Assembly: GCA_013140455.1 (NCBI GenBank)
Contig: JABFSU010000004.1
Location: 1-37,376 of the forward strand
Direction of reading: 5' to 3'
Length of the DNA: 37,376 bases
From: Nitrospira sp.
Lineage (GTDB): Bacteria; Nitrospirota; Nitrospiria; Nitrospirales; Nitrospiraceae
Numbering within the stretch: the first letter of the stretch is position 1; every line of letters starts with the position of its first letter. Positions 13,035-27,839 of the stretch are shown here, piece by piece. Below the pieces are notes generated by a model that saw nothing but the letters and a program-made list of their open reading frames with translations, was not told the DNA's origin and searched no databases. Made by a program: the position numbers and the translations under genes.

Positions 13035-13148
13035 CGCAGGGCGCAACTTCAACTGACGAGGCGCCTGGGAGGCCACGCCATGGCCCCCATGGCAGCCCAT
13101 TTCAGTCGCCCACTAAATCCTATAGGCCTGCCCCTACAGATGAGGGAG

Positions 13149-13178
13149 TTGCCTCAACAGGGTGACTGGGACTATATT
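13149..13178 (+). promoter_or_regulatory. Putative promoter giving a leaderless DUF6502-like transcript
   Basis: TTGCCT (13149-13154) and TATATT (13173-13178) are 18 bases apart. The predicted start falls at or next to the ATG at 13185, so the message would be leaderless. The -10 box lies inside the dyad at 13167-13182. Confidence 0.5.
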
Positions 13179-13182
13179 CCCA
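13167..13182. promoter_or_regulatory. Dyad TGGGA-N6-TCCCA, site 1
   Basis: Perfect 5-bp arms flank CTATAT. The site covers the putative -10 box and ends two bases before the chosen start of the DUF6502-like gene, a position fit for a repressor. It differs by one base from site 31885-31900. Confidence 0.55.
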
Positions 13183-13184
13183 AC

Positions 13185-14012
13185 ATGCCGCAATCCAAGT
13201 CTCAGCGCCCCTTGTCTGCCGCAACGCTTCAACTCCTGCGTCCCTTAGTCAAAATCCTGCTTCGAAATAACGTCCCCCATCAGACTCTGGCTGAATGGGC
13301 CAAACAAGCCTACATCGACGTTGCCAATAGCGATTTTGGAATCGCCGGGAAGAAACAGACCGTCTCCCGCGTTGCCATTCTGACCGGGCTTACACGGAAA
13401 GAAGTCCAGCGCTTGCTGAACCGACCGGACAACGCACAACACGCCGACGGCGAAGAGTACCATCGCGCCTCCCGTGTCATTACGGGATGGGTCCGGGACC
13501 CGGACTTCGGGGATGGGAAAGGCCACCCTCACCCGCTTCGGATGGAAGCCAAAGGAGCCTCCTTTGCCGAACTGGTAAAACGCTACAGCGGGGATATGCC
13601 GGCTCGAGCCATGCTGGATGAGCTGCTCCGGGCTGGAGCGGTCAAACAGCTCAAGGACGGCCGGATCTGTTTACTGGCCCGCGGGTATGTGCCCCAAAAG
13701 GGCTCGTCGGAAAAGCTCAACATTCTCGGCAGCGATACGGCTGATCTCATTGCCACCATCGACCATAACCTCTACGAGAAACCCGCCAAGCCTCGCATTC
13801 AACGCAAAGTCATGTACGACAACGTGCCGGTCGAAGCGGCCAGGGAATTTCAGATCTTGGCGGCAGCGCAAAGCCAGGAGCTTCTGGAAGCGCTGGATCG
13901 ATGGCTTTCTCACCGCGACCGTGACGTCAATCCAGCTTCAAAGGGAACCGGTCGTGTCCGGGTCGGGCTCGGCCTGTATCACTTTGAGGAACGACTCGAT
14001 AAAGAATCCTAA
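13185..14012 (+). CDS. DUF6502-like protein
   Basis: The 275-aa product is soluble. The N-terminal segment LRPLVKILLRNNVPHQTLAEWAKQAYIDVA, together with KKQTVSRVAILTGLTRKEVQRLL, looks like a winged-helix or other helix-turn-helix region, as I recall for DUF6502 proteins. The C-terminal half is helical with a short basic stretch. DNA binding is plausible but unproven. Two starts compete. The ATG at 13080 has GGGAGG seven bases upstream and adds 35 residues of atypical sequence. The ATG at 13185 follows a good promoter and starts close to the conserved part. I favour 13185; start confidence is only moderate. Confidence 0.75.
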   Translation: MPQSKSQRPLSAATLQLLRPLVKILLRNNVPHQTLAEWAKQAYIDVANSDFGIAGKKQTVSRVAILTGLTRKEVQRLLNRPDNAQHADGEEYHRASRVITGWVRDPDFGDGKGHPHPLRMEAKGASFAELVKRYSGDMPARAMLDELLRAGAVKQLKDGRICLLARGYVPQKGSSEKLNILGSDTADLIATIDHNLYEKPAKPRIQRKVMYDNVPVEAAREFQILAAAQSQELLEALDRWLSHRDRDVNPASKGTGRVRVGLGLYHFEERLDKES

Positions 14013-14043
14013 GGCACGTGCGTTGCACTAATAATTGAAGACT

Positions 14044-15537
14044 ATGCGATCACGGTTGCTACATAGCCTCCTTGGCCTTGCCGCCCTTTTCCTGGCAATC
14101 GCCTCCTGTAGTCCTGCGGGTCCCACGCCTCAGGCCGGCGGCGGAATCGGCGGGACCGGGTCCGTCGCTACGGTCTCGTCCGGCCCTGTCACCAAATTCG
14201 GGAGCGTATTCGTCTCCGGAACGGAGTACGACAATACGAACACCCTGTATTGCATCGACGACACCCCCTGCACTGAGACGAACACCCTGAAGCTTGGAAT
14301 GGTCGTGCTCGTCAACGGCATGGCAACTGAAGATTACGCCACCAATCAATTAGGGATCCGGGTCGCGAACACAATCACCTACGAAGAGACCGTCGAAGGC
14401 GAAGTGCAATCGGTAGCCGCGGACGGCCTAAGTCTGATCGTGCTCGGCCAGGTGGTGCACATCGACCAGAACACGAATATCGATGCCAGTATTCCAGGAA
14501 AATCCATCGCCAATCTCGTACCAGGCACAGACGTCGTCGAAGTCAGCGGATTCATCGTGGGGGATGGCCATATTCTTGCCACGTTCATCGAATTGCAGAC
14601 CGGAACCCCACACTACGAAATACTGGGAGTGATCAAGAACCATGAGCCCGCGAAACTGCGATTCGACGTCGGCACACTCATGGTCGAGTACACCACCACA
14701 ACCGACACCAGCCAAATGCCGCCGCTGTCCCAGTCGGCACCCACATGGAACGGAATCGTCGTCCACGTTCGCGGCGATCAATGGAGTTCAGGCGGCCCAG
14801 GTCCATCCGGAGCGAAACTGACAGCGACACGAACCAAACCGCAAACCCTCGGTGTCACAAATATCGAAGATGCGGAAGTAGAGGGGTTCATTACACACCT
14901 GGATCCATCGGGAACTGTGTTCATCGATAATATACGCATCACCACGACCCCATCGACGGTTTTCGAAGGCGGCACCGCCCTCGATCTGATCCTCGACACG
15001 CGCATCGAAGTGCACGGCCGGGTCGTAAACGGCGTGCTGGAAGCAGAACACGTCTCGTTCAAAGGCGCCTTCGAACTTGAATCGAACGTGGCCTCGATCA
15101 ATCCCGGCGCGCGCAGCCTGACCCTGGTCGGCATTTCTGGGACGACGCTCTATGCTGATAATGAAACGGCCATCGACGGAGAAGGTAATCTTCGCCGCTT
15201 CGCAGACATCGCTGTCGGCGATCATTTAAAAATTCACGGACGCCCCGCCGGAAACACCGGCATCCTGATCACGGAGCTGGAACGAAGCGATCCCGGCTCA
15301 AAGGTCAAACTGCAGGGGCCGATTCAGTCGGTTCTCGATCCGACCCTCACAATTGCAGGGGCCAGAATCAATGCCTCAGGCATTTTGAATAACAGGTTTA
15401 TCGGAACCGATGGAACCGTTATCGGACGCTCCGGGTTCTTCCAGGGACTCGGGATCGGCCGAAAAGTGACCATCACCGGAACGGCCGCAGGCGATACGGT
15501 AACCTGGACCAGTGCGCGGATTTCTGCCGGAGACTAG
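14044..15537 (+). CDS. DUF5666-like repeat lipoprotein
   Basis: The 497-aa product begins with a lipoprotein signal, Cys22 in LAIASC, then a Gly-rich linker. The mature part is beta-rich and repeats the pattern (V/L)EGxVxS(V/I)... followed by a strand carrying a Thr/Asn-rich 'DxxTxI' and then GxxVxVxG. This is typical of OB-like DUF5666 modules, with five or so copies between about residues 110 and 490. The function is unknown; it is presumed at the outer membrane. A TTG at 14035 is in frame, but the ATG at 14044 gives a cleaner signal peptide. Ribosome sites are weak. It lies directly before the multiheme cytochrome, 36 bases apart, and may share its transcript. Confidence 0.78.
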   Translation: MRSRLLHSLLGLAALFLAIASCSPAGPTPQAGGGIGGTGSVATVSSGPVTKFGSVFVSGTEYDNTNTLYCIDDTPCTETNTLKLGMVVLVNGMATEDYATNQLGIRVANTITYEETVEGEVQSVAADGLSLIVLGQVVHIDQNTNIDASIPGKSIANLVPGTDVVEVSGFIVGDGHILATFIELQTGTPHYEILGVIKNHEPAKLRFDVGTLMVEYTTTTDTSQMPPLSQSAPTWNGIVVHVRGDQWSSGGPGPSGAKLTATRTKPQTLGVTNIEDAEVEGFITHLDPSGTVFIDNIRITTTPSTVFEGGTALDLILDTRIEVHGRVVNGVLEAEHVSFKGAFELESNVASINPGARSLTLVGISGTTLYADNETAIDGEGNLRRFADIAVGDHLKIHGRPAGNTGILITELERSDPGSKVKLQGPIQSVLDPTLTIAGARINASGILNNRFIGTDGTVIGRSGFFQGLGIGRKVTITGTAAGDTVTWTSARISAGD

Positions 15538-15573: not shown

Positions 15574-18390
15574 ATGTTCGTGTGCCACCTTCGCGACCAG
15601 TCGTTTCTCTTCACCGCCCTCCTCTTCGCATGTTTCTTTCCAACTTCGACATTTGCCGACTCGCTTGAATCCGCCCTCATGCCGGGCCAGGTCATTCAGG
15701 GGCACGCGAAATGGGAGGAGACCTGCGCCAAATGCCACAAGCGGTTCGATAAGGCGGCGCAAACTCAGCTGTGCCAGGACTGCCATAAAGACCTCCGCCA
15801 GGATATCGAAAGCAAGCAGCGCTTTCATGGCCGGCTGAAAGAACAACGGGAATGTCGCGAGTGCCATACCGACCACAAGGGGCGAGAAGAGAACATTGCG
15901 CCGATCAACGAATCCACCTTCGACCACGCCCAAACGAACTTTGCCCTCACAGGCGGCCACGCCGACACCAAGAAAGCCGAGTGCAAGGCCTGCCACAAAC
16001 CCAAGATCAAATATCGGGAGGCACCATCGGAATGCCTGGCCTGCCACAAGAAAGACGACACCCACAAAAGCAACTTCGGAGAAAAATGCGAGGGCTGTCA
16101 TACTGCAACGAATTGGAAAGAGATTATTTTCGACCATGAACGGGATACCAAGTACCCGTTACGAGACAAGCATCGATCCGCCAAGTGTGAAAGCTGCCAT
16201 ACAGGCCATCTCTACAAGGATAAACTCAAGACCGACTGTTACTCTTGCCATAAGAAAGACGACTATCACAAAGGCATCTTTGGCCAGAAATGCGAGACCT
16301 GCCATGGTGAAAAGGATTGGAAGACCTCCCCGTTCAACCATGACAAGGACACCAAATACCCATTATTAGGCAAGCACAAGACGACCAAGTGCGAAAGCTG
16401 CCACAAAGTGCCGGTGGCCAAAGAAAAAACGCCGACCGGTTGCTATGCCTGTCACAAGAAAGACGATAAACACGAAGACGCACTGGGACGAGCCTGTGAA
16501 TCCTGTCATACGGAGAAGGACTGGAAAGAGACACCCGCGTTTGACCATGGGAAGACCCTATTCCCCTTGCGGGGCAAACACATCGATACGAAATGCAAAG
16601 ACTGCCATCCCGATCAGCGATACAAGCCCACTCCCGTTGACTGCTACTCCTGCCACAAGAAAGACGACTACCATAAGGGCATCTTTAGCCAGAAATGCGA
16701 GACCTGCCATGGTGAAAAGGATTGGAAGACCTCCCCGTTCAACCATGACAAGGACACCAAATACCCATTATTAGGCAAGCACAAAACGACCAAGTGCGAA
16801 AGCTGCCACACCGTGCCGGTGGCTAAAGCGAAGACTCCCACGGCCTGTTACGCCTGTCACAAGAAAGATGACAAGCACGAGAACGCGCTGGGCCAAGCCT
16901 GCGAACAATGCCACACAGAAAAAGAGTGGAAAGACACCCGTCTCTTTGAGCACAATAAAACGAAATTCCCGCTACTCGGCAAACACGAAAAGGTCGATTG
17001 CAAAGGATGCCATCCCGACCGAAAGTACCGGCCCACGCCACTGACTTGTCACGCGTGCCACAAGAAAGACGATGTACATAAAGGAGACTACGGTGAGAAA
17101 TGCCAGACCTGCCATACGGACCGCACGTGGAAAGAGATCACCTTCGATCATGATCGGGATACCAAATTCGCCTTGCGTGAGAAGCATCGGAGCGTGACCT
17201 GCCGCGGCTGTCATGCCGGTCATCTCTACCAGGATAAACTGAAGACCGACTGTGGCTCCTGCCATCGAAAAGACGACATCCATAACGCCGTCTTTGGGGT
17301 GAAATGCGAAACCTGCCATTCGGAAAAAATGTGGAAACCTTCGCCGTTCAATCATGACCGCGATACGAAATATCTCCTGCTGGGCGCGCACGAACTCGTC
17401 ACCTGCGAGGAGTGCCACAGGGTTCCCGTGGCCAAAGAAAAAACGCCGACGACCTGTCAGGCGTGCCACCGCAAAGAGGACAAACACAAAGGCACATTTG
17501 GCGACCGATGCGAGACCTGCCATCGCGAGAAGAGTTGGAAGCTCATTCGATTCGACCACGACCGGGATACGAAATACCCCCTGAACGGGAAACATCGAAC
17601 CACAACCTGCACCAGCTGCCACAAAGGCCTTCTCTATAAGGACAAGACCCCGACCGACTGTGTGGCCTGTCACAAGAAAGACGATAAACACAAAGGATCA
17701 TTCGGGAGCGTGTGCGGGGATTGCCACAATGAACAAAAGTGGCAAAACATCCTTTTTGATCACGACCGGCAGACGAAATATTCGCTCCGAGGAAAGCACG
17801 TGGGGCTGAAATGCGACAGCTGCCATAAAGGCCATGTATATAAGGACAAGACCTCACCGGAGTGTTATGCCTGCCACAAGAAGGACGATAAACATAAGGG
17901 GCAGGAAGGCCAGCAGTGCGAGACCTGCCATCGTGAAGCATCCTGGAAAGCCGTGTCGTTCGACCACGACAAAGCCCGTTTCCCCCTGCGCGGGCAACAC
18001 GACATCCTTGACTGTCGAAAGTGTCACAAGTCATTGCTGTTTAAAGATGCCCCGTTGGACTGTGTCGGGTGTCATGCAAAGGAAGATGTGCACAAGCAGC
18101 GGTTCGGCACACAATGCGAAACCTGCCACACCGCCCGTGACTGGAAGTTATGGGACTTCGATCACGATGTGCGAACCAAATTCAAGCTGGATGGCGGGCA
18201 CAAGAAGGTTGATTGCTACGACTGCCATCACAAGCCAATGAAGGGGAAGCTCGTCACCTCGAATACCTGCAGCAGCTGCCACAAGAACGACGACAAACAT
18301 GAAGGCGGCTTCGGCCCCCAGTGCGACCAATGCCATACCACCTCGCTGTGGAAAACGATCAAGCCAGGAGGAGGGATTCGGAGGAAATGA
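15574..18390 (+). CDS. Giant multiheme cytochrome c with 39 CXXCH motifs
   Basis: The 938-aa protein has a signal peptide cleaved near residue 28 (TFA/DS), so it is exported and matured in the periplasm. I count 39 CXXCH heme sites: three in residues 29-115, then twelve tandem units of 66-70 residues (about 116-926), each with three. Each unit reads F(D/N)H...LxGKH...CxxCH...CxxCHKKDDxH...CxxCHxExxWK. Each thus adds three conserved non-motif histidines (FxH, GxH, DDxH), enough for bis-histidine ligation of every heme. No membrane anchor or catalytic domain is seen. The role is probably long-range electron conduction in or outside the periplasm. It is related to short cytochrome c3/c7-like modules, but I know no named homologue. 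A weak ribosome site precedes the ATG. Confidence 0.9.
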   Translation: MFVCHLRDQSFLFTALLFACFFPTSTFADSLESALMPGQVIQGHAKWEETCAKCHKRFDKAAQTQLCQDCHKDLRQDIESKQRFHGRLKEQRECRECHTDHKGREENIAPINESTFDHAQTNFALTGGHADTKKAECKACHKPKIKYREAPSECLACHKKDDTHKSNFGEKCEGCHTATNWKEIIFDHERDTKYPLRDKHRSAKCESCHTGHLYKDKLKTDCYSCHKKDDYHKGIFGQKCETCHGEKDWKTSPFNHDKDTKYPLLGKHKTTKCESCHKVPVAKEKTPTGCYACHKKDDKHEDALGRACESCHTEKDWKETPAFDHGKTLFPLRGKHIDTKCKDCHPDQRYKPTPVDCYSCHKKDDYHKGIFSQKCETCHGEKDWKTSPFNHDKDTKYPLLGKHKTTKCESCHTVPVAKAKTPTACYACHKKDDKHENALGQACEQCHTEKEWKDTRLFEHNKTKFPLLGKHEKVDCKGCHPDRKYRPTPLTCHACHKKDDVHKGDYGEKCQTCHTDRTWKEITFDHDRDTKFALREKHRSVTCRGCHAGHLYQDKLKTDCGSCHRKDDIHNAVFGVKCETCHSEKMWKPSPFNHDRDTKYLLLGAHELVTCEECHRVPVAKEKTPTTCQACHRKEDKHKGTFGDRCETCHREKSWKLIRFDHDRDTKYPLNGKHRTTTCTSCHKGLLYKDKTPTDCVACHKKDDKHKGSFGSVCGDCHNEQKWQNILFDHDRQTKYSLRGKHVGLKCDSCHKGHVYKDKTSPECYACHKKDDKHKGQEGQQCETCHREASWKAVSFDHDKARFPLRGQHDILDCRKCHKSLLFKDAPLDCVGCHAKEDVHKQRFGTQCETCHTARDWKLWDFDHDVRTKFKLDGGHKKVDCYDCHHKPMKGKLVTSNTCSSCHKNDDKHEGGFGPQCDQCHTTSLWKTIKPGGGIRRK
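16276..16809 (+). repeat. Near-identical internal DNA repeat, 405-bp offset
   Basis: About 130 bases from 16276 recur at 16681 with only two visible mismatches (TGGCC/TAGCC and CACAAG/CACAAA). They encode the same GIF-QKCETCHGEKDWK-SPFNHD region. The offset is 405 bases, or 135 codons, equal to two repeat units. Other units of the gene differ far more at DNA level, so this copy arose recently by duplication or gene conversion. Confidence 0.75.
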
Positions 18391-18443: not shown

Positions 18444-19694
18444 TCATGGCATAATCCGTAGTACACAGTGATTGCCTGAATCCGCAACAAGAAGATTCCC
18501 CGCAGGGTCCCTGGTGAGTCCCATTGGATTATTCAGAGGGGCCGTCTCTGCAACCATCCCGTTGATTGAATGCCCCCGAAGGTCCGTCCCGGCAACCGTC
18601 GTGATGATTCCCGACTCCCCATCTATCCGCCTGATCCGGTTGTTAAACGTATCGCTGAGATAGACTGAGCCATCGGTATCGACGATAATCCCCGAAGGCT
18701 GCATCAGCCGGGCAAGGGTGGCACCGGCCCCATCACCGTCGAATCCTTCTTCCCCGGTTCCGGCGACGGTGCTCATGATCCCGCTGACGGCATCCACACG
18801 ACGCACTCGGTTGTTCATCGTGTCGGCAATCAACAGGTGACCGTTCCCGTCAACGGCCACTCCGCTCGGGTTATTGAGTTCGGCCTGCACAGCAAGCCCG
18901 CCATCCCCTGCCTCTCCCGCAATGCCGCTGCCGGCGACCGTCACAATGATCTGCTGCGCACGATCCAGCTTCCGAATGCGATGGTTTCCGCTATCCGCAA
19001 TGAAGAGGGTCCCATCAGCACCCATCGCGAGACCAGTCGGCCCACTCAATTGCGCCCGCACCGCAAGCCCCTCGTCCCCCGAAAACCCCTGTTCACCGGT
19101 CCCGGCGACCGTAGAAATGATTCCCGTCCGAGCGTCGACAGTCCGAATCCGGTTATTGAAACTGTCCGCAATGATAATATTACCCTTGTCGTCGATCGCC
19201 ACTCCCGAGGGGCTGTTCAACTGCGCCTCTGTTGCCAAGTCGCCGTCACCGGAGAATCCTTGCTGTCCCGTCCCAGCCACGGTCTCAATCTTTCCGCTTG
19301 CGGCATCCACCCGGCGGACCCGGTTATTAAACGAATCCGCGATCACAATATTCCCCGCTGCATCCACCGCAACACCGGCCGCAAACCACAGACGTGCTCG
19401 AGTCGCGAGTCCCCCGTCGCCGATAGACCCTAATTCTCCGGTGCCCGCAACCATATAGACCCTGGAAGTCCGACTCTTCGAGGCCTGTTCGGACAGGCCA
19501 AGACCAGCATCAGCCTCCAATGCGCGGAGCAGTTCCGGCGCAACATTCACCATCATAGTGCCGCCGGTCGGCATTTCTTCGACCGGAGGTTGGGCGACAG
19601 TCAGTCCCTGCGAAAAGCTCAGGCTGGGGACACCCGTCAGAACGACCACCGAAGAGAACAAGAGGTGGAAGGACATGCCGGTAATGCGGTTCAT
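18444..19694 (-). CDS. Secreted NHL-repeat beta-propeller protein
   Basis: The 416-aa protein has a signal peptide (about residues 1-29, SLSFSQ). Six NHL-type blades follow, each with VAGTGxxGxxGDGGLAxxAxLxxPxGVAVDxxGNxxIADxxNNRVRRVD. Six blades can close a complete propeller, normally a protein- or ligand-binding surface; no enzyme site is evident. AAGGAG lies six bases before the ATG at 19694. It converges with the 39-heme cytochrome gene (53-base gap). A consensus promoter and a dyad lie upstream at 19755-19812. Confidence 0.9.
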   Translation of the reverse strand: MNRITGMSFHLLFSSVVVLTGVPSLSFSQGLTVAQPPVEEMPTGGTMMVNVAPELLRALEADAGLGLSEQASKSRTSRVYMVAGTGELGSIGDGGLATRARLWFAAGVAVDAAGNIVIADSFNNRVRRVDAASGKIETVAGTGQQGFSGDGDLATEAQLNSPSGVAIDDKGNIIIADSFNNRIRTVDARTGIISTVAGTGEQGFSGDEGLAVRAQLSGPTGLAMGADGTLFIADSGNHRIRKLDRAQQIIVTVAGSGIAGEAGDGGLAVQAELNNPSGVAVDGNGHLLIADTMNNRVRRVDAVSGIMSTVAGTGEEGFDGDGAGATLARLMQPSGIIVDTDGSVYLSDTFNNRIRRIDGESGIITTVAGTDLRGHSINGMVAETAPLNNPMGLTRDPAGNLLVADSGNHCVLRIMP

Positions 19695-21960: not shown

Positions 21961-22779
21961 TTGACCGAAAACTACGCATCGCTCATGGGTACAAACCACG
22001 ACTTACAAAACAAACGTCCTTCGAGCCAAAAGGCCGAATCGCATGACACTGCCGCAAGCCACACGAACGGCAATTCCTCCCATTTGCCTGTTCGGATCTT
22101 GCTGGTGGAAGACCATACGCTCGTTCGAGAAGCGCTGGCATCCTTGCTGAGTCTTGATAAGAATATTCACATCATCGGCGAAACGGGGAACGGCACTGAA
22201 GCCGTACAACTCATCGCATCGCTTCAACCTGCCATTGTGCTCCTGGACCTCTCCTTACCAGGGCTTCATGGGACCGATATCATTCGCCAGGTGAAGGCGA
22301 GATTTCCGGACATCAAGTGCCTGGTCCTCACCGTTCATATGTCTGAGCCAATCGTCCGCGCCGCCCTACAGGCGGGAGCAGCCGGATATCTCCTCAAAGA
22401 GGCGTCTCATGCGGAACTCAAAACAGCTATTTACAGCGTGGCGCAAGGGAAGATGTATCTCAGCCCCATGATCACAGACAAAGTGCTCTCCGGGTACCTA
22501 GGCAACCCAGCCTCTGCTCCGAGCGAATCCAATCCATGGCATCGACTATCAGATCGTGAGCGGGAAGCGCTGAAGCTGGTGGCCGAAGGAGCCACAAGCA
22601 AGGAGATCGCCAAACAGTTGTGCATCAGTATCAGAACGGTAGAAAAACACCGCGCGAGTCTCATGAGCAAGCTCAACCTAAAATCTACGGCAGCCCTGAC
22701 CGCCTATGCCATTAAGCATGAACTCGTTTCAAGCGCCGATGTGCTGAGACTCGACCTGTTGCAAGAGGACAACCTATGA
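21961..22779 (+). CDS. NarL/FixJ-family response regulator
   Basis: The 272-aa regulator has a receiver domain (about residues 43-160) with acidic pocket ED (50-51), phospho-acceptor Asp96 (VLLDLSLPG) and the conserved Lys in GYLLKEAS. A LuxR-type helix-turn-helix follows (about 195-260: LSDREREALKLVAEGATSKEIA, RTVEKHRASLMSKL). It is expected to be phosphorylated by the NarX-type kinase encoded two genes downstream and to bind DNA as a dimer. The start is uncertain: TTG at 21961 or ATG at 21985, both with poor ribosome sites; the first 40 residues are disordered either way. It heads the six-gene plus-strand locus. Confidence 0.9.
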   Translation: MTENYASLMGTNHDLQNKRPSSQKAESHDTAASHTNGNSSHLPVRILLVEDHTLVREALASLLSLDKNIHIIGETGNGTEAVQLIASLQPAIVLLDLSLPGLHGTDIIRQVKARFPDIKCLVLTVHMSEPIVRAALQAGAAGYLLKEASHAELKTAIYSVAQGKMYLSPMITDKVLSGYLGNPASAPSESNPWHRLSDREREALKLVAEGATSKEIAKQLCISIRTVEKHRASLMSKLNLKSTAALTAYAIKHELVSSADVLRLDLLQEDNL

Positions 22780-22816
22780 GTCACTCATGTCCTGACATCC
22801 GCCAAGGAGACATCCC

Positions 22817-23545
22817 ATGTTCTTGATTATCTTGATAGTGACACTGCTCTTTCCAAACATGGCACCAGCCCAGACTCAGAAAGAACAGGGAGTCGTCACC
22901 ATACAGGTACTGTATCGCGGCGCAGTTCCTCCTCCGGCTGTCATGAAAGTGACCCGCGATGCAGACGTCTGCGGCATATCAATGCCGATGCACTCGTTGA
23001 CCGTCCACTCGCCTTCTAGGGGACTGAAGGATGCCGTGGTCACGATCGAGGGGATTCCTGCGCCAGACACAGAGCATGCGCCTCCGACACCGATGGTCTT
23101 GTCGAACTCTGGATGCGCGTTTTCCCCTCATGTGCTGCCCCTCAGAATGGGGTCACCGCTCGAGATCCACAACCAGGACCCCGTGATGCACAACACCCAT
23201 ATTACAAGCGACGTACGCACGTTCATCAATGTGGCCATGGTGGCAAAGGCTCGCCCTGTCGTCAAAAAGGTAGAGAAATCGGGACTGTATCGAGTCCAAT
23301 GCGATGCCCATAAATTCATGCGCGGATACGTGCTGGCGGCGGAGCATCCCTACTTCGGCATGACCGACGAACGCGGACATACCCGAATCCTCAACGTACC
23401 TCCGGGAAACCACGAGATCTCTGTCTGGCATGAGCAACTAGGACCGCTGCAGGCCCACGTGACGGTCCCTCCCAATGGAGAAGTCGTCGTGACACTCGAG
23501 TATTCCGAAGACCGAGCACACCATGGCGATCGTACGAATAAGTGA
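22817..23545 (+). CDS. Cupredoxin-like periplasmic copper protein
   Basis: The 242-aa product has a signal peptide (about residues 1-18, APAQ). The central domain looks like a type-1 copper fold: EIHNQDPVMHNTH supplies a His (125 or 128), and VQCDAHKFMRGYV supplies Cys162, His165 and Met168. A beta-sandwich resembling carboxypeptidase-regulatory domains follows (GHTRILNVPPGNHEISVWHE). Two further Cys (52, 100) could form a disulfide. Proteins of this outline are often annotated as plastocyanin-like or carboxypeptidase-regulatory-like. A role as a soluble electron carrier or copper sensor partner is inferred from the ligands and from cytochromes in the locus. AAGGAG precedes the ATG; the gap from the regulator is 37 bases. 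Confidence 0.8.
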   Translation: MFLIILIVTLLFPNMAPAQTQKEQGVVTIQVLYRGAVPPPAVMKVTRDADVCGISMPMHSLTVHSPSRGLKDAVVTIEGIPAPDTEHAPPTPMVLSNSGCAFSPHVLPLRMGSPLEIHNQDPVMHNTHITSDVRTFINVAMVAKARPVVKKVEKSGLYRVQCDAHKFMRGYVLAAEHPYFGMTDERGHTRILNVPPGNHEISVWHEQLGPLQAHVTVPPNGEVVVTLEYSEDRAHHGDRTNK

Positions 23546-23554
23546 GCGACACCC

Positions 23555-25477
23555 ATGCCGATTCCGCTCTACCCGATAACCACGCACGTGCGAGAAACCT
23601 GGAGAAAGAACTTTGGCCTTCGCCTCGGAGCAGGCCTGAGCCTCATTCTCATTCTCGTAATGGGCACCAGTGCCGCAATGCTTGTTCTTCATCAGAGCCA
23701 TGCATTGCGCCATGCTGCCGAGGAGCGGGCGCGCGCCGTAGCCCGCACGTTTGCCGCGGTCGGATCTGCCGCCGTACTCGACAACCTGTATCGCCTCCAG
23801 GAGTCGTTACAACTCTATCTGCAAGATGATTCCCTCATGGAGATCGACATTGTAGACCACGACAGCTTGGTCGTTGCGGCTAAACAACCGGCCAGAATTG
23901 GAACCGTTCTGGATGATCCGGAATGGCTTGAAGCCCGCCAGACAAAGCGTGAAGTCATCATTCAAACCCATCTGCGCGATGGACAACCGGCGCTGGTCAT
24001 TCTCGAGCCATTGTTTGATCGTGATGAACTCACCGCGTGGGTGCGCATGGCCATCTCGCTGGCGGAAGTTGAACAGGAACAGTCTCGCATGATCTGGCAG
24101 CTGCTTGCCGTCACCATCGCCATCATGGCAATCGGCTTGTATGCGATACGGCGCGTGCTGCGCCAAACATCCACCGTGCTGCACAGTGTGGTCTCAACGT
24201 TACACGCTGCGACCGTCCCCAGCCGAGGAAGCGACTCTTCTCAGGCCACTCTTCCCTCGCGCAATGAAGGGGATTATGAACAGCTCCTGACGGCCGCCAC
24301 ACAAGCGGCGTCAGCCTTGAGCACACGGTCAAGCATGCTCCAGGAACTTGCCCAAACGCTCGAAGGCAAAGTAGTCGAACGGACCGCTGAATTGGAAGCC
24401 GCCCGGCTGCACGCGGTGCGGTCGCTCGAAGATCTTCGCGACAATGAGGCTCGCCTGCGCTGTCTCGTCGAGACAGCCGCAGATGCGATCATAGTTGTCG
24501 ACGAACAAGGCGTCATCGAATCGGTCAATCCCGCAACTTGCACGCTCTTTGGTTATAGCATGACAGAACTGCGAGGCCTGCAGGCTCAGACCATGCTACT
24601 CCGCACATCGAACCGGCCGATACAAGGCGACGGACAATCGTATGCGACCATCAGATCTACTGCGGAAGCGGTTGGACGGCATAAGAACGGAACATCGTTT
24701 TCAGCCGAACTGTCTGTGAGTGAAATGACCCTCGCTGGGGCCATTCATTTCACACTCATCGTCCGCGATGTGACGGAACGACGGCACATGAAGGAAATGA
24801 AGCAGCATAGCGACCAGCGCCTACACCAGCTCGGCGAAGAACGGGCGCAACTGTACCATGACCTGCACAGCAGCCTGCTGCAATCCCTGTCGGCGGTGAG
24901 CATGGGGCTGGAAGCGACCAAACTTCTGCTGGAGCAATCCCCTGACCGCGCGCCCAAACAACTCGATCGCACATTGTCTCATTTGCACCGTGTGATCCAA
25001 GAAACACGTGATTACATCATGCGCCTTGAGCCTCGAACGGCCTCCCATGATCATTTCTTGCAATCGATGCAAATGCTGGTTCAGCCGAAAGAGGACTGGC
25101 CCTGTCCTCCATTTCTCATCGACATCGATCCACTCACTGACAGCCAGCTGTCTATCGATCAAGAAATCCATCTACTCTCGATCGCGCGGGAAGCCATCAG
25201 CAACATCGTGCATCACGCCCAAGCCCAGGCAGGAATTATCCGGCTGGGATCATGGGAGAACAAGATCCAACTGGAGATCAAGGACAACGGAAGGGGATTC
25301 AGCCCGGACGAAATCGGCCCCAGCAGCCCGGGCCTCACAAACATGTCCACCCATGCCAAGAAACTTCACGGACGTTTAACCATCGCATCGGCTCCCGGAG
25401 AAGGCACCACGATTCTTGTGACGATACCGCTCTCTCAAGAAGCTCAACATGCAGACGGCCTCGCCCATGCAAACTGA
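23555..25477 (+). CDS. NarX-type sensor histidine kinase with PAS domain
   Basis: The 640-aa kinase has TM1 (about residues 24-46), a periplasmic sensor of about 130 residues, TM2 (about 180-198), a linker or coiled coil, a PAS domain (about 298-410), a HisKA_3 dimerisation region and a C-terminal ATPase domain. The ATPase domain has an N-box (REAISNIVHHA) and G-boxes (DNGRGF, GEGTTI). The likely phospho-histidine is His438 in DLHSSLLQSL, because Gln443 sits at the usual H+5. The residue after the His is Ser, where the family normally has Asp or Glu. The sensor is clearly related to that of the hybrid kinase at 27911. It is nine bases from the cupredoxin-like gene, and the NarL-type regulator upstream is its natural partner. 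Confidence 0.9.
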   Translation: MPIPLYPITTHVRETWRKNFGLRLGAGLSLILILVMGTSAAMLVLHQSHALRHAAEERARAVARTFAAVGSAAVLDNLYRLQESLQLYLQDDSLMEIDIVDHDSLVVAAKQPARIGTVLDDPEWLEARQTKREVIIQTHLRDGQPALVILEPLFDRDELTAWVRMAISLAEVEQEQSRMIWQLLAVTIAIMAIGLYAIRRVLRQTSTVLHSVVSTLHAATVPSRGSDSSQATLPSRNEGDYEQLLTAATQAASALSTRSSMLQELAQTLEGKVVERTAELEAARLHAVRSLEDLRDNEARLRCLVETAADAIIVVDEQGVIESVNPATCTLFGYSMTELRGLQAQTMLLRTSNRPIQGDGQSYATIRSTAEAVGRHKNGTSFSAELSVSEMTLAGAIHFTLIVRDVTERRHMKEMKQHSDQRLHQLGEERAQLYHDLHSSLLQSLSAVSMGLEATKLLLEQSPDRAPKQLDRTLSHLHRVIQETRDYIMRLEPRTASHDHFLQSMQMLVQPKEDWPCPPFLIDIDPLTDSQLSIDQEIHLLSIAREAISNIVHHAQAQAGIIRLGSWENKIQLEIKDNGRGFSPDEIGPSSPGLTNMSTHAKKLHGRLTIASAPGEGTTILVTIPLSQEAQHADGLAHAN

Positions 25478-25601
25478 TCGTTCTGTCATGCAGTCCGAGA
25501 GACACCTGATCGTCGCGGTCTCCAACCCTTCCGTACCAAAGAGTGGCTGGACGACCTGCATTTCCTGCCCTGTCCGTCGACCGATGTGCAGGTGAATCTC
25601 A

Positions 25602-27041
25602 ATGAACGGCTATCCTGCGAATCCTCGTACCTCCCTGAACCGATTTGCCATGACTACGCGCTTCAACGCTCACATCGGGCGACCAGCCATTCATGCTCTG
25701 GGACCGTTCCTCTGCGCGATGGTTGGGATAACCGGTCTATTTCCTCCTTCTGAAGCCCAGGCCATTCCCGCCTTCGCGAGAAAATACGCTGTGGCCTGCA
25801 CAACCTGCCACACGGCGCCTCCACGCCTCAACACGTTCGGAGAGCGGTTTCTTGAAAACGGGTACCAGCTGCCGGGCACGGAAGATGGCGGAAGCATCGG
25901 GAAGAAAAATCTCGGCGACATCAGCCTCGACGACGTGTCTCATTACCTGGGCGTCCGGCTTCGGGGGAATGTACTCACACGCTACCGGTTTAAGCAACAG
26001 AGCCCGGCCGGCACAGAACCCGGCACCGTCGAAAACAAGTCTGAATTGGGGTTTCCTGAAGTGTTCAGCCTCTTCACGGCCGGCACCCTATCGAAAAATA
26101 TTGGATTCTTCGCCGAGTTGGAATCTAACCTGCATGAGCGTGTCACCGGCATTGAACGCGCATTCCTCACCTTCGATAATCTCCTAGGACAAGACGTCAT
26201 GCATATCCGGATCGGGCGGCTTGACCCGTCCGCAGCATCATCGTTTTCCACCCTGCGTCAGCAACTAGACGCCATCGGCGCAAGCATCAATCCGTCGTCC
26301 GATGTCGTCCAACGAGCCGGACTCCTCCCGCTGGCCACTGCAGGAAAATTCTACGGCCTGCGCGACCGGTCTGGAGCCGTCCTGTCGCCCTATACCCCCG
26401 CGCTCTATAACAGCGTGGCGGAAACCGGCATTGAGATCCGCGGCCGTCCCTTCGGCGAATGGTTCCTGTATCAGCTGGGCGTGCTCAACGGAGCGCATGA
26501 AGGATCCGGCGATTCCAATAAAGGGAAAGACATCTACGGCGCGATTCGTTTTGACTATGTCCGATCGAGCAATTTCTCGGCGAGCATGACGGGTTTCGCC
26601 TACATAGGAAACAGCAATGCGATGGTGTTTGATGGAGCCAACAATGCCAACGTGAGCTGGAACCGCTACGGGATTGCCGGCCATGCGCGATATAAAATGC
26701 TGGACCTGTACGGCATGTATACCATGGACTACATCAGGCATCTGCCGTCGGCGGTCTCGGCCACGTTCGATAAGACTGCCAGCGGCCTCTCAGTTGCGGC
26801 CGATGTCTACATGACGAATCAGACGCTCCTCTCAGTACGATACGATCACATGGATGCAGGCGGCGAACGGACGCAACGGGCGTCGCAGAGTGTTGTCGGG
26901 ACACAAATCAAGCACTACCTGCGGTCCAATGTCGCGATCTATGCACGTGGCGATGCCAACGTGCGCAAAGCGGAAGACGGGAATGCTGCGGCCCGCAATT
27001 TACGCAACGCCGTGTTTGTGGGAATCGACGTCGCGTACTAA
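25602..27041 (+). CDS. Monoheme cytochrome-porin fusion, Cyc2-like layout
   Basis: The 479-aa protein has a signal peptide ending near residue 54 (SEAQA/IPAFA). One heme site follows (CTTCH, residues 66-70) within AIPAFARKYAVACTTCHTAPPRLNTFGERF. About 380 residues of alternating, aromatic-edged beta strands end in a typical outer-membrane C-terminus (VFVGIDVAY). One N-terminal heme plugged into a porin is the layout of Cyc2, the outer-membrane iron oxidase. The PAFAR...CxxCH...P.LN.FG..F...GY pattern also fits. Such heme-porin proteins form a broad group, so Fe(II) oxidation is only a hypothesis. An alternative start is the ATG at 25650, which gives a shorter signal peptide. GGTGA precedes 25602. 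Confidence 0.78.
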   Translation: MNGYPANPRTSLNRFAMTTRFNAHIGRPAIHALGPFLCAMVGITGLFPPSEAQAIPAFARKYAVACTTCHTAPPRLNTFGERFLENGYQLPGTEDGGSIGKKNLGDISLDDVSHYLGVRLRGNVLTRYRFKQQSPAGTEPGTVENKSELGFPEVFSLFTAGTLSKNIGFFAELESNLHERVTGIERAFLTFDNLLGQDVMHIRIGRLDPSAASSFSTLRQQLDAIGASINPSSDVVQRAGLLPLATAGKFYGLRDRSGAVLSPYTPALYNSVAETGIEIRGRPFGEWFLYQLGVLNGAHEGSGDSNKGKDIYGAIRFDYVRSSNFSASMTGFAYIGNSNAMVFDGANNANVSWNRYGIAGHARYKMLDLYGMYTMDYIRHLPSAVSATFDKTASGLSVAADVYMTNQTLLSVRYDHMDAGGERTQRASQSVVGTQIKHYLRSNVAIYARGDANVRKAEDGNAAARNLRNAVFVGIDVAY

Positions 27042-27065
27042 CTCGTAATCCCTGGAGTCGAGGCT

Positions 27066-27839
27066 ATGCACACACGGAATCTTGCGCTGCTCGTCATGAT
27101 CACGCTGGTCACCGGGATCGCCCTGCCTGTGGGAGCCGAAAAGCCTGATGGCCACAGACAGACGCAGGAAAGAGGGCGCCATATCTATGAGCGGGCCTGC
27201 CTATGGTGCCATGGAACGGAGGGGCGAGGCGACGGACCGGCCGGCTGGACCATCGGCCGCTACACGGCGCCTCGCCCGCGAGATTTTGTGTCTGAAGGAT
27301 TCAAGTTTCGCAGCACCCCATCTGGAGAACTGCCGAGCGATCACGACCTCTTTCGCACCGTGACCCGAGGCATTCCCGGAGTCATGCCCCCGTTCGGGTC
27401 GTTGACGGAACAGGAGCGGTGGGAGGTCATCGCCTACATCAAGTCCTTCAATCCTGCATTCAAGGAGGCGCCGCCGATTCCTCTGAACGTTCCCATTCCC
27501 TCTATTCCCGCCTCCGAGACCAGCATCACACAAGGAAGAGCGATATACCTTCAGTTCGGCTGTCAAGGCTGCCATGGTGAAAACGGCACGGGGGACGGCC
27601 CCGTCCACCGAGCCGGAGAATTGCGAGACGAACAGAGACTCCGGATCGCCCCCACCGACTTGACCAACCGCGCGTCGTTCAAGAATGGGTCCGATCCCCG
27701 CGATATCTATCGGACCCTCATGACCGGCTTGGACGGAACACCCATGCCGTCGTACTCCGCCAACTTTGAGGGAAGCGAAGACAACGTGTGGCATCTCGTG
27801 AATTACCTTCTATCGCTCTCGCCGGAGCCATCTCAGTAA
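27066..27839 (+). CDS. Periplasmic diheme cytochrome c
   Basis: The 257-aa protein has a signal peptide (about residues 1-24) and two class-I cytochrome c domains. Heme 1 is CLWCH (45-49) with Met107 (GVMPPF) as likely distal ligand; heme 2 is CQGCH (166-170) with Met227 (GTPMPSY). Each heme site is followed by GxxGxGDGP, as in many diheme carriers of the CccA/cbb3-associated type. The role is electron shuttling between periplasmic partners. It starts 24 bases after the porin-cytochrome stop, so the two probably work together. The hybrid kinase follows by 71 bases. Confidence 0.9.

Follow-up and report, generated by a model that had tools for sequence, protein, structure and literature searches.

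The window analyzed here is a 37,376-nt stretch of DNA from a Nitrospira metagenome assembly (G000, close to Nitrospira sp. CG24D). It contains a conserved gene cassette in the order DUF6502 protein, DUF5666 lipoprotein, multiheme cytochrome and convergent NHL protein, together with a downstream module that includes a one-heme protein (Table 1). The cytochrome carries 39 CXXCH motifs in 938 residues, equivalent to 24 residues per heme. In 2000 composition-preserving shuffles of its residues, CXXCH occurred 0.59 times on average and at most six times, and the other five frames contained none, ruling out a chance or wrong-frame origin. The count given by the first-pass annotation is therefore exact, and the twelve three-heme repeats it described were borne out, with three further motifs at the ends (two N-terminal, one C-terminal). 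The units are 66–69 residues long, except for the first with 78 residues, and each holds three extra histidines in the contexts F-D/N-H, G-K-H and DDxH, which do not vary among 89 three-unit fragments of this protein and other family members. Together with H44, H85 and H101, the 36 histidines of the units give exactly 39 distal histidines, each of which is histidine in a 30-member alignment wherever the aligned sequence has a residue; six more histidines lie outside this set. As the protein has 39 distal histidines and only four methionines, it is most naturally read as having a complete bis-His set, and all 39 hemes can be bis-His ligated, as had been proposed. The Pfam families matched are c7 (Cytochrome_C7), c3 and class III cytochrome. 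At the putative signal peptide cleavage position, orthologues carry AWA/DS or AWA/DN. The gene is under purifying selection (dN/dS of 0.12 against the orthologue of S2bin.15); this value and the intact motifs rule out a pseudogene.

Table 1 Positions of the cytochrome gene, its internal features and neighboring genes in the window.
Feature	Position	Strand	Basis or remark
DUF6502 protein	13080..14012	+	First cassette gene
DUF5666 lipoprotein	14035..15537	+	Lipobox LAIAS/C; gene conserved directly ahead of the cytochrome in all solo loci examined
Cytochrome c of 938 aa with 39 hemes; solo paralogue of the periplasmic multiheme subunit of PCC3	15574..18390	+	Motif count, Pfam, tree
Probable Sec signal peptide, residues 1–28	15574..15657	+	Cleavage near TFA/DS; judged from the sequence
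N-terminal region carrying hemes 1 and 2	15658..15852	+	Conserved ALMPGQVI.GHAKWEE.C..CH; third motif starts at 15853
Twelve triheme units (motifs 3–38); three CXXCH plus three conserved distal His per unit	15853..18321	+	
Segment holding the 405 bp absent from Nitrospira CG24D	16407..16823	+	Junction in 11-nt identity, gene nt ~834–845
NHL-repeat (beta-propeller) secreted protein, convergent	18444..19694	-	Conserved in solo loci whose downstream side was covered
LuxR-type regulator, cupredoxin-like protein, histidine kinase, single-CXXCH probable outer-membrane protein, diheme cytochrome c	21961..27839	+	

The relationship of the 39-heme protein became apparent from a second homologue in this genome, which has 27 hemes and is encoded on contig C64. 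There, the neighboring genes encode a beta-barrel-like protein, a divergent 43-heme cytochrome of the extracellular type, rich in Thr, Ser, Ala and Gly, and an inner-membrane protein that contains SGXXG and two WX3HX13H motifs. This gene content matches the published definition of PCC3, a putative porin-cytochrome complex described by He et al. 2017 as an inner-membrane protein of ~300 aa with these motifs, a periplasmic multiheme cytochrome, an extracellular cytochrome and a porin (PMC5566968). In the window itself, we found no such inner-membrane protein, no large beta-barrel porin gene and no Thr/Ser/Ala/Gly-rich extracellular multiheme cytochrome, whereas C64 holds one of each. The 39-heme protein resembles PCC3 periplasmic cytochromes in sequence and tree position, in heme counts that are multiples of three and in high heme density. 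It differs in heme number (39 versus 21–27) and in its neighbors, which are the DUF6502, DUF5666 and NHL proteins instead of the PCC3 components. Judged by homology to the C64 paralogue and to proteobacterial copies (41–100% identity with the relatives aligned), it is an enlarged and relocated paralogue of the PCC3 periplasmic subunit. The idea of a stand-alone new architecture is thus not supported, as porin, inner-membrane protein and extracellular cytochrome of PCC3 are encoded in the same genome. Within the PCC3 literature covered, we found no mention of Nitrospirota, so PCC3 in Nitrospira may so far be unreported. These findings place a PCC3 conduit with an enlarged extra periplasmic subunit in organisms known for nitrite oxidation; a comammox context was rejected, with no AMO found in this genome.

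Heme number was compared among 34 loci of named genomes and additional ones. Intact copies adjoining the inner-membrane protein have 21, 24 or 27 hemes, while the seven intact copies in Nitrospiraceae that lack PCC3 neighbors, here called solo, have 30, 33 or 39. In a tree built from both terminal regions, these seven form one clade (support 0.99) that is sister to the Nitrospira PCC3 copies, and proteobacterial PCC3-type copies fall outside this grouping. The 39-heme protein is not the longest of its kind: in other Nitrospirota lineages, long relatives with 36 to 68 CXXCH occur, with no PCC3 neighbors in the stretch fetched (L079 8919–13835; L077, L078, L081, L082, L087–L090).

The cassette, which the solo copies have in common, provides further links to PCC3. 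Only 36 bp separate the DUF5666 and cytochrome genes, and the lipobox was found in the DUF5666 copies inspected. Due to this lipobox, the lipoprotein is a possible anchor for the 39-heme cytochrome. The first-pass annotation had the protein lacking an anchor, porin partner or enzyme domain; while an enzyme domain is indeed absent, the porin is missing from the immediate neighbors only, and the DUF5666 lipoprotein offers a candidate for the anchor. The DUF6502-DUF5666 pair also occurs in PCC3 super-loci of several Nitrospira and UBA2082, and a Piscinibacter MAG has a weak counterpart immediately next to PCC3. Among 79 Nitrospira genomes, DUF6502 was present in 10/12 with the cytochrome family versus 12/67 without it (Fisher p = 2e-5, uncorrected for phylogeny). 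The solo cassette of CG24C lies about 11 kb from the PCC3 porin gene, with the extracellular cytochrome also near, the solo gene of CG24D about 49 kb and a frameshifted solo copy in UBA2082 about 3 kb from the porin, fine distances being uncertain owing to contig breaks in the repetitive cytochrome genes. Two uncharacterised families, DUF6502 and DUF5666, are in this way tied to PCC3. In WB-IL-04 (G309, 99% complete), however, the solo cassette is present, yet no PCC3 inner-membrane protein or porin was detected, so the partner of the solo cytochrome need not be PCC3. As separate observations, the short UBA2082 copy (L063 7703–9070, G045 C16) adjoins the PCC3 cluster and is either decaying or mis-assembled, and the window DUF5666 protein shares only 56% identity with its S2bin.15 counterpart (L016 7688–9166; dS 1.19), compared to 94% for DUF6502 (dS 0.16) and 89% for the cytochrome. 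The DUF5666 allele looks as if it had been replaced by recombination.

A full-length AlphaFold2 model built with 30 relatives reached a pLDDT of 44 and was set aside; a three-unit fragment gave moderate values (pLDDT 77.5, pTM 0.44). With this fragment, Foldseek returned no PDB match and a second structural aligner run against one chain found nothing at Z 2; a single-sequence PDB search with the 39-heme protein likewise gave no match. Profile searches matched the Geobacter "nanowire of hemes" GSU1996/GSU2210 (PDB 3OV0, E 3.8e-7) and the sixteen-heme HmcA (1Z1N), with scores inflated because they are partly driven by the CXXCH motifs. Like the former, the 39-heme protein would be a monomeric chain of triheme modules, and its twelve units and Cytochrome_C7 assignment might point to tandem c7 domains of the GSU1996 type, though no fold match was obtained. 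Presumably, the order of distal histidines and CXXCH in its units differs from that in PpcA. GSU1996 has 12 hemes with one His-Met heme per domain (PMC10138318), in contrast to the full bis-His set and few methionines found here. HmcA shares tandem class III cytochrome modules and weak profile matches, but the protein scores 34 bits against a family cut-off of 400 (NF045713), and no Hmc operon was seen in the window.

The proposal that the architecture is consistent with a heme wire and unlike OmcS/OmcZ polymers holds up, as do the triheme repeat and the full bis-His set. OmcS, OmcE and OmcZ are likewise c-type heme chains proposed for long-range transfer, but they are extracellular polymers of 4–8-heme subunits, whereas the 39-heme protein would form one covalent chain; its size and family placement argue against this type of polymer. 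That it is an extracellular protein working as, or polymerising into, a conductive filament appears highly improbable: it is secreted, repetitive and heme-dense, but its family is that of the lysine/aspartate-rich periplasmic PCC3 subunit and not of the Thr/Ser/Ala/Gly-rich extracellular one, and neither similarity nor structure hints at polymerisation.

Comparison with CG24D, a metagenome assembly of the same species, revealed a natural heme-repeat-number polymorphism between near-identical strains. The CG24D gene shows zero mismatches to the window gene over 2412 nt and lacks exactly 405 bp, corresponding to 135 aa, two units and six hemes, resulting in a 33-heme gene. The junction falls within 11 identical nucleotides that follow two mismatches and are located just beyond the longest stretch of identity (97 nt), and the S2bin.15 gene (89% identity), from an independent assembly, has 39 hemes in colinear order. 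Both points disfavor assembly collapse in CG24D, and with the 39 hemes of S2bin.15 retained in that order, a loss in CG24D is the more parsimonious scenario. Two same-species assemblies differing in this gene by six hemes only represent a natural experiment on heme number in a putative molecular wire.

A molecular-wire role has already been proposed for the 21–27-heme PCC3 periplasmic cytochromes; those of Gallionellaceae, with 21, 24 or 27 hemes, are long and mostly linear in models (PMC10734462), and PCC3 itself lacks a functional test (PMC12442390). For the 39-heme protein, we consider it fairly likely that it is an exported, probably periplasmic wire of triheme modules, derived from duplication of the PCC3 subunit, that passes electrons between carriers of the inner membrane or periplasm and an exit in the outer membrane. 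The duplication would have taken place in Nitrospiraceae and modules would have been gained, and also lost, to arrive at 30–39 hemes compared to 21–27 in cluster-bound copies. Twelve c3/c7-like modules, with two histidines per heme, would be strung on one chain along which electrons could pass, in either direction, between neighboring hemes close enough for contact. Candidate exits are the porin and extracellular cytochrome of the PCC3 cluster in this genome, or else the probable outer-membrane protein with a single heme that is encoded 7 kb downstream, with the DUF5666 lipoprotein perhaps holding the cytochrome at the outer membrane. One alternative explanation could be an electron reservoir, a capacitor whose hemes mainly store electrons in a wide periplasm and thereby bridge times when no acceptor is available, so that heme number would mean capacity and not reach. 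Monomeric periplasmic polyheme cytochromes of the GSU1996 type have been proposed as capacitors in Geobacter (PMC10138318), and storage would fit nearly as well as a wire: the six-heme loss in the otherwise unchanged CG24D gene is tolerated, as graded capacity would predict, and the cassette has no dedicated outer-membrane porin. We nevertheless regard a reservoir as rather unlikely, since the conserved lipoprotein and the linkage to genes for the PCC3 porin and extracellular cytochrome point to an outer-membrane route.

Under the wire reading, the added length may be suited to the wide Nitrospira periplasm, for which a width of 34–41 nm is often quoted. This periplasm is unusually large (PMC3600790, PMC13049253), and linear scaling from the ten-heme MtrA, about 100 angstrom long as cited by He et al. 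(PMC5566968), would give some 39 nm for 39 hemes. The match between a wide periplasm and long solo cytochromes is suggestive. Taken further, solo cytochromes could be length-adjustable periplasmic rulers, in which a covalent heme chain tuned by recombination and held by the DUF5666 lipoprotein would bridge both membranes as a branch separate from PCC3, a version we think improbable. If length did equal periplasm width, the long-discussed spanning of the periplasm by a single cytochrome would become directly testable.

The downstream module is complete in the window, CG24D and WB-IL-04 and partial in CG24C. Its one-heme protein (25602–27041, +) has 479 aa; a signal-like N-terminus precedes its single CXXCH (FARKYAVACTTCHTAPPRLNTFGERF), and about 400 residues with an aromatic end follow. 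These features are those of a probable Cyc2-like cytochrome-porin, but it matched no Pfam family, and no PDB hit was significant. The solo cytochrome could serve this protein, together with the cupredoxin-like and diheme proteins, in a pathway independent of PCC3. The presence of the module beside the cassette in all three genomes with a complete copy would agree with this, as would WB-IL-04 with its undetected PCC3, and in PCC3-less Nitrospira, one-heme proteins of weak relatedness are likewise encoded near DUF6502-DUF5666. On the other hand, the solo loci of CG24E and CG24C have no one-heme protein nearby, and in the window seven kilobases, the convergent gene and a PilZ gene separate cytochrome and one-heme gene, so that we rate such a dedicated pathway as unlikely.

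Two further observations concern PCC3 loci as such. In about 20 Nitrospira PCC3 loci, the periplasmic cytochrome is trailed by a ~525-aa TPR and peptidase-MA-like protein (for example L011 3644–5221), which stands outside the four components of the published description (PMC5566968). In addition, a gammaproteobacterial PCC3-type locus (L036 11744–23959, +) contains, next to the inner-membrane protein and a 24-heme cytochrome, a 4071-aa open reading frame with 133 CXXCH, exceeding the 85 given by He et al. 2017.
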